In this document: positions 1 to 30,912 of the stretch, piece after piece
Layout: each line of letters starts with the position of its first letter
How positions within the stretch are numbered: the stretch's first letter is position 1
From: Agromyces tardus
Lineage (GTDB): Bacteria > Actinomycetota > Actinomycetes > Actinomycetales > Microbacteriaceae
Length of the DNA stretch: 64,000 nt
Assembly (NCBI RefSeq): GCF_003710805.1
Contig: NZ_RHHB01000009.1
Span: forward strand, 29,706 to 93,705
Direction of reading: 5' to 3'
Position numbers and translations under genes: made by a program
Notes under the pieces: model-generated
Databases searched by the model: none
Seen by the model: the letters and a program-made list of their open reading frames with translations, nothing else
Told to the model about the DNA's origin: nothing

Positions 1-1526
<1,526 letters not shown>

Positions 1527-7328: not shown

Positions 7329-8434
7329 GCCTCAATGTCGAGCATCACGCGACCCGAACCCTCCCGTCCGAGAAGCCCCTCCGACTCCTCGACAACGCCG
7401 GCCATGCCGTCGACGGATCGGAGACGGGCGGGTTCTCGTTGCCGCCCGTCGAGCGGCTCCTCGAGCTCTACCGCCGCATGGTGGTCGCCCGTCGCTTCGA
7501 CGTGCAGGTCACCGCCCTCACCAAGCAGGGGCGCCTCGCCACCTACCCGTCGGCGTACGGCCAGGAGGCATGCGAGATCGGCGTCATCTCGGCGATCACG
7601 GCCGACGACTGGTTCTTCCCCACCTATCGCGACAGCATCGCGCTGCTGACCCGCGGCATCGCCCCCGGCGAGATCCTCACGTCCTTCCGCGGCGACTGGC
7701 ACAACGGCTACGACCAGCACCGGTACCGCACCACGGCGCAGGCGACGCCGCTCGCCACCCAGGCCCTCCACGCGGTCGGCCTCGCGCACGCCGCACGGCT
7801 GCGGCGCGATCCGATCGTCGCGCTCACCTTCCTCGGCGACGGCGCCACGAGCGAGGGCGACGCGCACGAGGCGTTCAACTTCGCCGCCGTCTGGCAGACG
7901 CCCACGGTCTTCCTCGTGCAGAACAACCAGTTCGCCATCAGCACCCCGGTCGCGCGGCAGACCCACGCGGCGACGCTCGCCGACAAGGCCGTGGGCTACG
8001 GCATGCCCGGCTACCACGTCGACGGCAACGACGTCGCGGCCATGTACGCCGTCGCGCACGCCGCCGTCGAGCGCGCACGTTCGGGCGGCGGCCCGACCCT
8101 CATCGAGGGCCTCACCTATCGCATCGAGTCGCACACCAACTCCGACGACCCCACCCGGTATCGCAAGGCCCGCGAGGTCGAGCACTGGAAGCGCCGCGAC
8201 CCGATCGAACGACTCGAGAAGTACCTCGTCTCCGAGGGGGCGCTGTCCGACGCCACCCGCGCCGAGATCGCCGACGCCGCCGAGTCCCTCGCCCGCGAGA
8301 CGCGCGAGGTCATGACGCGGGAGGCCGTGATCGACCCGCTCGAGCTCTTCGACCACGTCTACTCGCGGCCGCGCGCGGCACTGCTCGAGCAGCGCGCCGC
8401 CCTCGAGGCCGAGCTCGCCGGAGCCGCCCGATGA
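7325..8434 (+). CDS. bkdA: 2-oxoacid (branched-chain) dehydrogenase E1 component, alpha subunit
   Basis: 369-residue thiamine-diphosphate subunit that decarboxylates the 2-oxoacid together with E1beta. The ThDP/Mg motif runs from GDGATSEGD to QNNQF, and the regulatory loop IESHTNSDDPTRY is present. The heterotetrameric E1alpha/E1beta design in actinobacteria usually belongs to branched-chain oxoacid dehydrogenases, because their pyruvate enzyme has a single-chain E1; the neighbouring Lrp gene agrees. Pyruvate or acetoin as substrate is not excluded. ATG at 7325 is chosen over an in-frame ATG-less extension. The next gene overlaps by four bases. Confidence 0.92.
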   Translation: MSLNVEHHATRTLPSEKPLRLLDNAGHAVDGSETGGFSLPPVERLLELYRRMVVARRFDVQVTALTKQGRLATYPSAYGQEACEIGVISAITADDWFFPTYRDSIALLTRGIAPGEILTSFRGDWHNGYDQHRYRTTAQATPLATQALHAVGLAHAARLRRDPIVALTFLGDGATSEGDAHEAFNFAAVWQTPTVFLVQNNQFAISTPVARQTHAATLADKAVGYGMPGYHVDGNDVAAMYAVAHAAVERARSGGGPTLIEGLTYRIESHTNSDDPTRYRKAREVEHWKRRDPIERLEKYLVSEGALSDATRAEIADAAESLARETREVMTREAVIDPLELFDHVYSRPRAALLEQRAALEAELAGAAR

Positions 8435-27526: not shown

Positions 27527-27544
27527 ACCCCAGAAACGTGGGGT
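27527..27544. promoter_or_regulatory. Perfect inverted repeat in the FAD oxidase / LuxR promoter
   Basis: ACCCCA-gaaacg-TGGGGT is an exact 6-bp inverted repeat in the 110-bp divergent gap. It lies about 25 bp upstream of the LuxR -10 candidate, a good place for an operator of that regulator. Confidence 0.5.
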
Positions 27545-27566
27545 GGCCGGGGATTCGCGCGTCGGG

Positions 27567-27578
27567 GAGACTGTGCGT
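27567..27578 (+). promoter_or_regulatory. Leaderless-type -10 for the LuxR gene
   Basis: GAGACT (27567-27572), six bases, ATG at 27579. The first base departs from TANNNT. Confidence 0.4.
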
Positions 27579-28703
27579 ATGCGCACGTATCACGCCGAAT
27601 CCGCGCGTGCCGGCCTCGAGGTGCTGGCACGCGCAGGACTGCGCCCCGACGAGTTCAGTCGCGAGCTCATCGCGATCGTGGGGCGCGCGGTGCCGTTCGA
27701 CGCCATGTGCGTGGCCACGACGGATCCGGCCACGGGTTTCTTCACCGGCTCCGTCAAGCAGAACCTCGACGAGGACGACGAGCTGAACTACGAGTTCGCC
27801 GTGCACGAGTACGCCACCGAGGACGTCAACCAGTTCACCGACCTCGCGCGCCGCCGGATCGGCGTGGGCATCCTGCGCGATGACACCGGCGGCGACCCGG
27901 CGCGCAGCGGCCGCTTCGCCGAGATGGTGCATCCCGTGTTCAACGCCGAGCACGAGCTCCGCGCGGTCGCCCGCTCCGGCGGGTCCATGTGGGGTGCGTA
28001 CGCGCTCTACCGCAGGTCGGGCGGGTCGGGGTTCAGCCCCGCGGAGGCCGACTTCCTGCACGGCATCGAGTCGACGGTGGCGACCGGCATCCGCACGAGC
28101 CTCGTCGCGGCCGCCGCCGACCCGACCGACGACCCGACGGCGCCCGCAGTGCTCATGTTCGACCGCGACGGGCGCGTGACCCAGGCCACTCCCTCGGCCG
28201 ACGGCCGGCTCGCCGACCTCGGCGGCGAGTCGTGGACCCGACTGCCCGCGGCCGTGGCATCCGTCGTCAGCGCCGGCCGTGCACGGCTGAGCGGCGCGGA
28301 GTGGGTGCTGCCGCGACTGCGCGTGCGCGGTCGAAGCGGTCGCTGGTACGTGATGCACGCCTCACCGATGCAGTCGATGGACGGCTCGGGGACCCAGGTC
28401 GTCGTCACCATCGAGGAGGCCGGCCCGCCCGACGTCGTGCCGCTGCTCATCGCCGCCTACGGCCTCACCGCTCGCGAGGGCGACGTGCTGCGAGGCGTGC
28501 TGCAGGGCCGCAGCACCAAGGAGATCGCCACCGAGCTGCACCTCTCCCCGTACACGGTGCAGGACCACCTCAAGGTGATCTTCGACAAGACGGGCGCCTC
28601 GAGCCGGCGCGAGCTCACGTCGCAGGTGTTCTTCAGCCACCAGTTCGACCGCTACGGCGCGGCGCAGCGCCCGTCGGGCAGCAACCTCGCGATCGCCGGC
28701 TGA
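27579..28703 (+). CDS. LuxR family regulator with GAF-like sensor region
   Basis: 374 residues. The N-terminal 180 residues look like a GAF-type small-molecule domain (GRAVPFDAMCVATTDPATG). A second, PAS-like part follows at about 190-290 with MFDRDGRVTQATPSAD. The C-terminal LuxR helix-turn-helix is complete (LTAREGDVLRGVLQGRSTKEIATELHLSPYTVQDHLKVIF, in shorter pieces LTAREGDVL and STKEIATELHLSPYTVQDHL). It faces the FAD oxidase gene across a perfect inverted repeat, so it probably controls that gene and itself. The ligand is not known. Confidence 0.88.
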   Translation: MRTYHAESARAGLEVLARAGLRPDEFSRELIAIVGRAVPFDAMCVATTDPATGFFTGSVKQNLDEDDELNYEFAVHEYATEDVNQFTDLARRRIGVGILRDDTGGDPARSGRFAEMVHPVFNAEHELRAVARSGGSMWGAYALYRRSGGSGFSPAEADFLHGIESTVATGIRTSLVAAAADPTDDPTAPAVLMFDRDGRVTQATPSADGRLADLGGESWTRLPAAVASVVSAGRARLSGAEWVLPRLRVRGRSGRWYVMHASPMQSMDGSGTQVVVTIEEAGPPDVVPLLIAAYGLTAREGDVLRGVLQGRSTKEIATELHLSPYTVQDHLKVIFDKTGASSRRELTSQVFFSHQFDRYGAAQRPSGSNLAIAG

Positions 28704-28746: not shown

Positions 28747-29964
28747 TCAGCGGTCGCCCGCCCGCACCGCCGCCGCGATGCGCGCGGCGAGCTCGCCGAG
28801 TTCGGCGAGGATGTCGTCGACGCCCCAGACCCGGTTGCGCTGACGCGCCGTGACCTGGTGGATGATGCCGTCGGCCTCGAGCCGGTCGAGCGCCGTGTAG
28901 ACGCTCGACAGCGGCGCACCCGTGAGCTGCTGCGCCTCCTCGGCGCTCAGGATGGGATGTTCCGCGAGCACGGCGAGCAGGGACGCTGCGGCGCTGCCCG
29001 CGCGCGGCCGGCTGAGCTCGCGCCACTCCCCCGGCAGGTCGGCGAGCCGGTCGGCCGAGCGACGCGCCTCGGCCGCGGCGATGCGCGTGCCACGCGCGAG
29101 GTCGGCGACGAACTCGTCGGCCCGGCCGTCGCGGTAGCCGTTCACGAGCGCGAAGTACCGGTCGCGTTCGGCGAGCATGGCGGATGCCACGGGCACGACG
29201 GTGCGCCGGGTCAGGCCGCGTCGCCGCAGGATCGCGTTGATCAGCGCCCGCCCGATGCGCCCGTTTCCGTCGGTGAAGGGGTGGATCGACTCGAACTGGG
29301 CGTGCGCGATCGCCGCCTGCGCGACCGGGTCGAGGTCGTCGCGGTTGGCGAACACGACGAGGTCCTCCAGGTAGGCGGGTACCGTGTCCGGCGGCGGCGG
29401 GACGTGCACCGCCCCGATCGGCGAGTGGTCGGACCCGCCGATCCAGTTCTGCACGTCGCGCAGCCGGCCCGCGTAGCGGCCGTCCATCCGGTCGTCTTCC
29501 ATGAGCGTGCGGTGCGCGGCCAGCAGGTCGTCGAGCCGCACCCGGCCCGCCTCTCCCGCACGGTCGATCATCTGCGCGAGTGCGCGCGTCGCCGCGACCA
29601 TCGACGAGGCCGATTCGTTCGAGCGGATGCCGGCGACGGCCCGCGCGTAGTCGTCGAGGCTCGCATCGATGCGCTCGATCTTCGAGGACGAGACCGACTC
29701 GGTGCGCAGCAGGAGGCCGCCGAGCGCGCCGATGTGCCCGCGCGGGTCGGCGTCGACGGCGATGACCTCCCGGGCGGCCTCGGCGAGCGCGCCCGCCACC
29801 TCCGGCGGCGGCGTGTAGGGCAGCTCGGCGATCATCGGCGGCAGGGCGACGGTGATCTCGCGCAGCATCCGGTCGGCTCGCGTGCCGTGTCGGCCGGACT
29901 GCCGCCATGGCACGGTGCGTGCGGCGTGTGCGGGCCACGCGTGGGATGCGGTGTGGGCGACCAT
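28747..29964 (-). CDS. Fic family protein with C-terminal winged helix
   Basis: 405 residues. The catalytic Fic motif HPFTDGNGRIGR (about 227-238) is intact, so it should transfer AMP or a related group to hydroxyl side chains. The Fic N-terminal domain precedes it with ELPYTPPPEVAGALAEAA. The segment SSSKIER near residue 90 is in the place of the inhibitory motif (S/T)xxxE(G/N), but ends in Arg. A winged-helix region closes the protein (about 330-395; ILSAEEAQQLTGAPLSSVYT). The ATG at 29964 follows a GAGGAG site; an upstream TTG is less likely. The promoter holds a large nested palindrome, which suggests autoregulation by the winged helix. Confidence 0.9.
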   Translation of the reverse strand: MVAHTASHAWPAHAARTVPWRQSGRHGTRADRMLREITVALPPMIAELPYTPPPEVAGALAEAAREVIAVDADPRGHIGALGGLLLRTESVSSSKIERIDASLDDYARAVAGIRSNESASSMVAATRALAQMIDRAGEAGRVRLDDLLAAHRTLMEDDRMDGRYAGRLRDVQNWIGGSDHSPIGAVHVPPPPDTVPAYLEDLVVFANRDDLDPVAQAAIAHAQFESIHPFTDGNGRIGRALINAILRRRGLTRRTVVPVASAMLAERDRYFALVNGYRDGRADEFVADLARGTRIAAAEARRSADRLADLPGEWRELSRPRAGSAAASLLAVLAEHPILSAEEAQQLTGAPLSSVYTALDRLEADGIIHQVTARQRNRVWGVDDILAELGELAARIAAAVRAGDR

Positions 29965-29975
29965 GTGCTCCTCGG

Positions 29976-30049
29976 GAAGTCGGAACAAGCCTACCGTTAT
30001 TCCGAGTTATGCGGGTAACTCAGAATTATTGTCGTCCTGTTCCGACTTC
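29976..30049. promoter_or_regulatory. Nested 74-bp palindrome in the Fic promoter
   Basis: Outer arms GAAGTCGGAACA (29976-29987) and TGTTCCGACTTC (30038-30049) are exact inverted copies. Inner arms ATTCCGAGTTA (29999-30009) and TAACTCAGAAT (30016-30026) match in 10 of 11. Both pairs have the same centre (between 30012 and 30013), with 11-bp gaps between outer and inner arms. The minus-strand -10 candidate TAGGCT (29993-29988) lies next to the outer arm, so a protein bound here would cover the Fic promoter. Confidence 0.75.
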
Positions 30050-30072: not shown

Positions 30073-30912
30073 TCACGCGTCTCGCGCGGCCGCCCGCGCG
30101 ACGGCACGTTGCACCCTCGACAGCAGGCGGCGCGTGGCGAGCACGTGCGCACCCGTGCCCATCAGCAGCATCCGGTATGCCGCGCCGCGCCGGCCGGGGA
30201 AGATCGCGCGCGTCTCGGCCCGGAGCCGGCTGCGATCGGCGCCGAGGTCGTCGACGCGGAAGACGAGCTCGTAGTCGGAGTACCGGTGGCGCCCAGCGAG
30301 CGCGAGGACCGACGGGCGCTCGGCCGCCCCGACGTGGAACCCGGGGACGCTCGACCACTCCGCGAGCGGGCGCGGGCCGGATGCCGTGGTGTCCTCGCAT
30401 CCGAGGAGCATCGCGAAGCGCGGGCTGCCCACGCGGTCGACGACGCGCTCGAGCGCCGACCAGACGGCGTCACGGTCGGCGTCGATCACGATCGAGTGCT
30501 CGTCCACGTGCGGCAGGGGCGGCACGAGACCCGCGCGGCGCAGGTGATCGACGAGGTGCGTCGTCAGCGGCACCGCATGGAGTTCGGCGGGCGTGAACCA
30601 GCGCGCGTCATCGGCGTCGTCGCCGCGTCGGAGCACGCCGCCGACGACGGTCGCGGCGAAGTCGTGGATCTCGAAGTCGCGACCGTCGCCCGTGGGCGTG
30701 CGCACCGTCCACAGTTCACAGCCGATCTCGACGTGGAAGCCCGTCTCCTCGAGCGCCTCCCGCGCGGCGGCCGACTCGAGGGTCTCGCCGGGTTCGACGC
30801 GTCCGCCCGGAACCGACCACCGACCCCGCTGCGGCTCCCGGCCCCGCTCGACGAGGAGCACCCGCCCGTCGGGGTCGGCGATGACCGCGCTCGCGGCGAG
30901 GACGACCTCCAT
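30073..30912 (-). CDS. NUDIX hydrolase fused to an SRPBCC domain
   Basis: 279 residues. Residues 1-130 are a NUDIX hydrolase with a complete box, GGRVEPGE then REALEETGF, and WSVPGG in front. From about 140 on there is a second domain resembling SRPBCC/polyketide-cyclase folds (HSIVIDADRDAVWSALERVV at its start, then the strand YELVFRVDDLG and a final amphipathic helix). SRPBCC domains bind hydrophobic ligands; the combination could sanitise a nucleotide attached to, or made near, such a ligand. A TACGGT-N6-ATG arrangement sets the start at 30912. Confidence 0.8.
   Translation of the reverse strand: MEVVLAASAVIADPDGRVLLVERGREPQRGRWSVPGGRVEPGETLESAAAREALEETGFHVEIGCELWTVRTPTGDGRDFEIHDFAATVVGGVLRRGDDADDARWFTPAELHAVPLTTHLVDHLRRAGLVPPLPHVDEHSIVIDADRDAVWSALERVVDRVGSPRFAMLLGCEDTTASGPRPLAEWSSVPGFHVGAAERPSVLALAGRHRYSDYELVFRVDDLGADRSRLRAETRAIFPGRRGAAYRMLLMGTGAHVLATRRLLSRVQRAVARAAARDA

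Follow-up and report, generated by a model that had tools for sequence, protein, structure and literature searches.

Which protein reads the nested inverted repeats that lie directly upstream of a Fic-family gene in Agromyces tardus? The repeats occupy positions 29976–30049 of the window, by which we mean the whole 64,000-nucleotide stretch of contig NZ_RHHB01000009.1 that was analysed. The original prediction was that the Fic protein, which ends in a winged helix, represses its own gene from this site.

Layout of the array and the Fic promoter

The DNA features of the locus are as follows.

29976–30049, no strand: putative operator array of 74 bp with one dyad and four alternating half-sites (34-nt arms, 27/34 paired)
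29977–29988, plus strand: half-site AAGTCGGAACAA, nearest to the gene
29997–30008, minus strand: half-site AACTCGGAATAA
30017–30028, plus strand: half-site AACTCAGAATTA
30037–30048, minus strand: half-site AAGTCGGAACAG, farthest from the gene
29968–29973, minus strand: ribosome-binding site GAGGAG of the Fic gene, identified by eye
29988–29993, minus strand: candidate −10-like hexamer TAGGCT, between the two half-sites closest to the gene

The palindrome is present as predicted. Its outer arms (29976–29987 and 30038–30049) are complementary at 12/12 positions and its inner arms (29999–30009 and 30016–30026) at 10/11; both pairs share the centre 30012.5, and on either side a gap of 11 separates the outer from the inner arm. 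Taken alone, the outer 12-bp match is not rare: the window holds some seven places where a perfect 12-bp arm has its inverted partner no more than 60 bp away (11 raw hits). Scored as a single dyad with 34-nt arms and a 6-nt gap, the array pairs at 27 of 34 positions, compared with 22 for the next-best window position at the same gap and 24 for the best other place in the window when gaps of 0–12 are allowed (scan plus repeat finder). A second long imperfect dyad is found at 7988–8062 (34-nt arms, 24/34 paired at gap 7).

The arms had been described as two independent inverted repeats, which can be ruled out: all four are copies of one 12-bp half-site that switches strand from copy to copy and recurs every 20 bp exactly, which leaves 8 bp between neighbours. 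The shared centre and the equal gaps follow from this arrangement, because four alternating half-sites at even steps must give them. Searching the window with AASTCGGAAYAA and allowing up to two mismatches returned a single stray site (32369) besides the four half-sites of the array.

The array is flanked by the Fic gene (GAGGAG, with the ATG at 29964), which starts 11 nt beyond it, and by the stop codon of an upstream NUDIX gene. The last ~165 residues of this NUDIX gene (30073–30912, minus strand) have no Pfam match at E ≤ 0.001. The array had also been placed over the likely −35/−10 region. This is favoured in part by the candidate −10 hexamer TAGGCT, at whose place L002 has TAGGAT and L003 has TATACT; against it, a sigma-70 consensus scan found no promoter here. 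At 40 of the 67 loci outside the clade that carry a palindrome, a TANNNT hexamer stands at the end of the palindrome and is followed 4–9 nt later by an in-frame start codon, so that an operator in this position would cover the −10. These 40 Fic genes look leaderless (e.g. L013, L014, L022, L024, and L041).

Because the arms could also pair in RNA, the repeats might form a hairpin (an attenuator, a terminator, or a 5′-UTR element) and not a DNA operator. We found no terminator-like site at the array. If TAGGCT is the −10, transcription would start inside the gene-proximal half-site and the arms would not be transcribed together, and the layout at the 40 other loci leaves no leader in which a hairpin could form. 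Same-strand copies of the half-site at 40–41 bp (described below) also suit the helical phasing of DNA and not a hairpin. The empty terminator scan and the leaderless layout in 40/67 other loci make an RNA element very improbable.

Occurrence of the putative operator in genomes and across the Fic family

Mobile-element ends commonly carry palindromes, and the array could by chance be the end of a transposon, a recombination site, or one copy of an interspersed repeat. We searched for a 30-bp operator pattern (ASTCGGAAYAA-N8-TTRTTCCGAST, up to three mismatches) in the 4.06-Mb host genome and obtained two matches, both of which are halves of the array in the window; at this stringency the genome thus holds a single array and no scattered copies. 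The same search was extended to 14 genomes. Six of these have a Fic orthologue and together gave nine matches, each placed immediately upstream of that gene; G375, one of the six, comes from another family in the class. The 30-bp pattern did not occur in the eight congeners that lack a Fic match, and a reversed control pattern gave one match in the 14-genome search (in G031). The predicted presence of the operator upstream of Fic orthologues was therefore borne out in all six Fic-bearing genomes. Its occurrence at Fic promoters alone fits a dedicated operator and speaks against a repeat element, as does the fact that palindromes of this kind, in different letters, recur ahead of Fic genes in both the family and the class; a mobile or interspersed repeat has almost no probability left. 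No second site that would indicate a larger regulon was found in the six Fic-bearing genomes at up to three mismatches. A 32-bp pattern for the central palindrome matched in only 3/14 genomes, always at the Fic promoter, which indicates that the letters of the central pair are less conserved than those of the flanking pairs.

We then asked how general such palindromes are. The family set drew 130 loci from searches of the genus, the family, and relatives, and 126 of these have a Fic motif in an open frame; L057, L073, L121, and L122 were excluded since no Fic motif was found. Sixty of the search matches without a locus were added to the set and the rest were omitted, pattern loci L031, L043, and L044 were excluded, and L155 is the same gene as L107. 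Only palindromes with AT-containing arms that scored 15 or more were counted. In an early scan some of the top palindromes were rich in GC, resembled terminators, and lay far upstream (L006, L013, L020), and arms were later restricted to at most 60% GC.

By these rules, 93 of the 126 related Fic genes, the window gene included, have a comparable palindrome within 190 nt upstream; this count includes L087 and L077, whose palindromes appear to be off the promoter. An AT-containing palindrome scoring at least 15 is present in 92/125 full-length Fic upstream regions versus 11/384 flank pieces and 22/165 upstream regions of other ORFs, crudely defined. For 69/126 loci the observed score was never reached in 60 dinucleotide shuffles. 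The coding-piece control was near chance, with 9/126 pieces unmatched in 20 shuffles where 6 are expected. In a class-wide set the palindrome was found in 22/27 cases, one of the 22 being already in the family set. A palindrome at threshold is absent from 33/126 Fic loci, including 12 of the 38 clade loci (one of these, L057, could not be scored), and relatives with 52–55% identity (L004, L005, and L006) show no clear array.

The letters of the operator vary by sub-family and include ACCAAAGGTTA, ACCGATGGTTA, TTATGAGTAA, TTACTAACACTT, AATGACACTTA, and TTCCGAGTTA, among others; TTCCGAGTT, ACCAAAGGTTA, and TTATGAGTAA are the operators of three sub-families. At two loci (L114 and L128) a single Fic gene is preceded by tandem copies of the palindromic operator. 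The Fic gene of L009 (G006:C1:1776462-1777645) was matched as two overlapping pieces in different frames and looks broken.

The spacing of half-sites is less variable. Counting arm copies on the same strand with at least 75% identity, a copy lies 40–41 bp away in 14/26 clade loci and in 13 of the 59 that were tested among the 65 other loci, or 27/85 when pooled; any other single distance between 14 and 100 bp is represented by 0–2 loci. The array in the window falls just under this threshold, with 73% at 40 bp. At a threshold of 70% identity the 40–41-bp copy is found in 15/26 clade loci, and in none for four control distance bands. Neighbouring half-sites alternate in strand in 53/56 clade cases and 101/107 other cases. 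We also scored the four-half-site layout in 25 clade loci, with words chosen by eye and 4/12 mismatches allowed; the spacing test at ≥70% and ≥75% arm identity is a repeat made without eye-chosen words. The whole alternating order is seen in 8 of the 25 (L001, L003, L045, L046, L047, L055, L068, and L052, which has five half-sites), with steps of 22, 18–19, and 22, equivalent to 20, 20, and 20 in the register used for the window. The remaining clade loci of the 25 have a partial layout or a single pair. Relatives thus keep the placement of the operator and, where a second same-strand copy exists, a spacing of 40–41 bp, or about four helical turns, while the letters change.

The Fic protein and co-variation with its predicted recognition helix

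The features of the Fic gene that bear on DNA binding and on activity are listed here.

28747–29964, minus strand: gene for a Fic-family protein of 405 amino acids, modelled with a winged helix at its C-terminus
29248–29283, minus strand: Fic motif HPFTDGNGRIGR (residues 228–239)
29674–29688, minus strand: likely inhibitory-helix motif SxxxE
28819–28992, minus strand: winged helix, residues 325–382, predicted by AlphaFold2 (HTH_IclR match below cut-off)
28873–28911, minus strand: predicted recognition helix, residues 352–364, from the model (top window for operator similarity in all-pairs scans)

Membership of the Fic/Fido family is clear, with a PF02661 score of 80.7 bits against a cut-off of 24 and a motif, HPFTDGNGR, that fits HPFx[D/E]GN[G/K]R. 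PF02661 is also present in all 47 aligned members, and 4400 of the 7998 candidates scored are close homologues with E ≤ 0.001. An S/TxxxE ahead of the Fic domain is the inhibitory-helix motif of class II Fic proteins, in which G or N comes directly after the E. S93 and E97 are invariant among the aligned members (47/47), and we would call the window protein class II-like only, because its residue 98 is R and not G or N. The AlphaFold2 model has a mean pLDDT of 93.6, and the winged helix, which had been predicted from the sequence, is modelled at a pLDDT of 90–97, with helices at 341–348 and 352–364 and strands at 368–370 and 379–382.

A palindrome does not by itself reveal which protein binds it, and some other DNA-binding protein, a neighbouring or a global regulator, could bind the array and control the Fic gene. 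One neighbour (27543–28703) converges on the Fic gene and looks, by eye, like a LuxR-type gene. Against an outside regulator stands the 14-genome search, in which the operator occurs only where Fic is present and only at its promoter. A further line of evidence is a comparison of operator similarity with the similarity of every 10-residue protein window, corrected for the effect of the remaining protein. Loci with short or off-promoter arms (L019, L035, L077, L080, and L087) were removed ahead of the co-variation test. Residues 350–359 rank first among 384 windows over 109 loci (r = 0.279), and the nine best windows all overlap the recognition helix; the mean over windows is 0.013 (sd 0.072), and 60 permutations gave at most 0.120. 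As the sequences are related and not independent, these and the following figures are not clean probabilities. In a scan of 88 loci the recognition-helix stretch is again first, of 387 windows. The plain partial correlation between helix and operator, given the Fic domain, is 0.308, with 0/2000 permutations as high. Over all pairs, then, the predicted recognition helix is the protein stretch that best tracks the operator letters, ahead of every other part of the protein, and this argues against an unrelated binder, which we regard as improbable.

The signal is not uniform. For pairs with Fic-domain identities of 0.35–0.65, window 88–97, which contains the inhibitory motif, is ahead of the helix (0.220 vs 0.206). 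This window (29674–29703) is the best operator correlate outside the helix, and its correlation may reflect a sub-family marker or real coupling. Among distant pairs (<45% Fic identity) the trend is weak, with operators scored as similar in 1.4, 3.9, 5.9, and 3.6% of cases in four bins of rising helix identity. For 21 new class-wide loci, predicting the operator from the nearest neighbour gave a mean of 5.53 by helix, 3.88 by Fic domain, and 3.28 on average. Prediction by helix was better than shuffling (60/5000 permutations as good), yet among these 21 loci it was not specific to the helix, as other windows matched or exceeded it (up to 6.92, for the window at position 52). Among the new loci, L134 is the strongest single case: it comes from another family, is 56% identical, and has helix APVSSVYAAID and operator TTATTCCGAGTTAG; the counterparts in the window are APLSSVYTALD and TTATTCCGAGTTA. 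Finally, 0/14 pairs of Fic paralogues from the same genome reach an operator similarity of at least 8, versus 17% of all pairs (close orthologues included), a weak hint against a shared regulator and in favour of each Fic protein reading its own site.

Proposed autorepression and comparison with known systems

Given the genome specificity of the array and the co-variation of its letters with the helix, we consider it very probable that the four half-sites are bound by the C-terminal winged helix of the Fic protein itself, which would block its own promoter. Each Fic dimer would contact a pair of half-sites separated by about two turns of the DNA, and neighbouring dimers, about four turns (40–41 bp) apart on one face of the DNA, would bind cooperatively. 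Bound dimers would cover the −10 region, and the Fic protein would thereby keep its own level low. The proposal of autoregulation is thus partly supported, as in the genomes searched the operator is specific to Fic, it is conserved upstream of orthologues, and its letters co-vary with the helix; the ‘double operator’ of that proposal is really an array of four half-sites.

The sequence evidence suggests that in this actinobacterial family the majority of Fic genes have a palindromic operator of their own, in many cases on a 40–41-bp frame. If autorepression by the winged helix is correct, many unannotated ‘Fic family proteins’ would be self-contained and possibly mutually insulated regulators, and about a hundred helix–operator pairs would become available for reading DNA recognition by winged helices. 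Control of Fic activity by docking to DNA would also become testable.

The closest solved relative of the window protein is a FIC-domain protein of Mycobacterium marinum (PDB 7cb8), with 52% identity over 395 columns and TM scores of 0.93/0.96. It was solved with CDP, and the nucleotide used by this branch of Fic proteins may thus not be ATP. No paper on 7cb8 was found in the open-licence literature. SoFic (Shewanella SO_4266), which forms an anti-phage model in PADLOC, has the same overall fold (TM about 0.7), and its PADLOC profile matches residues 81–387 of the window protein (E = 5e-66). It differs in having only 19% identity, and the window protein does not reach the NCBIfam equivalog cut-off for SoFic (54.8 vs 550 bits). 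DNA binding by SoFic had not been shown according to the CbFic2 paper (PMC10628234).

CbFic2 of Coxiella burnetii resembles the window protein in being a Fic enzyme with a C-terminal winged helix that binds DNA, with DNA inducing a dimer (PMC10628234). It differs in that random DNA sequences and histone targets were studied, and it is 18–19% identical to the window protein in a fold alignment. The terms ‘operator’ and ‘autoregulat-’ are absent from its main text. DNA is further reported to promote dimerization of CbFic2, to stimulate deAMPylation, and to stop auto-AMPylation (PMC10628234). This coupling between DNA and activity keeps a further reading open, in which the array acts as a DNA antitoxin: Fic dimers docked on it at intervals of four helical turns would have nucleotidyl transfer shut, and release would re-open the gene and free active monomers. 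We hold this to be unlikely, if somewhat less so than control by another regulator. Were it true, a single DNA element would govern how much of a defence-type Fic enzyme is made and how active it is, and several such switches could run in one cell because each Fic protein carries its own half-site word.

Our preferred reading, repression by the protein's own winged helix, has its nearest precedent in CccR of Yersinia pseudotuberculosis, a Fic domain with a C-terminal HTH that represses its own gene through a palindrome (PMC9755527). The authors report footprint, EMSA, and lacZ data for autorepression and a need for the dimer. The control loop, which had been put forward as new, is in this sense already published; within the open-licence literature, CccR is the only bacterial Fic protein for which we found a documented role of the DNA-binding end at its own promoter. 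A proposed tuning of the loop by AMPylation state is speculation and finds no support: with CccR H192A delivered from donor cells, the promoter was still repressed in recipients, and the regulatory and toxic activities are called independent by the authors (PMC9755527), which speaks against such tuning. The window protein shares with CccR a C-terminal winged helix (in the model) and an inverted repeat in its own promoter, that of CccR lying near the −35/−10 (PMC9755527). The two differ in their sites, since CccR has two 10-bp arms 26 bp apart and the window has four 12-bp half-sites with 8 bp between them and other letters; in addition, CccR is a secreted effector, as described there. We infer that the Fic protein of the window would work like CccR, yet we do not class it as CccR. 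Relative to that system, and within the open-licence literature (subscription papers and preprints lie outside this scope), what is new is the family-wide co-diversification of operator and helix, together with the 40–41-bp frame.
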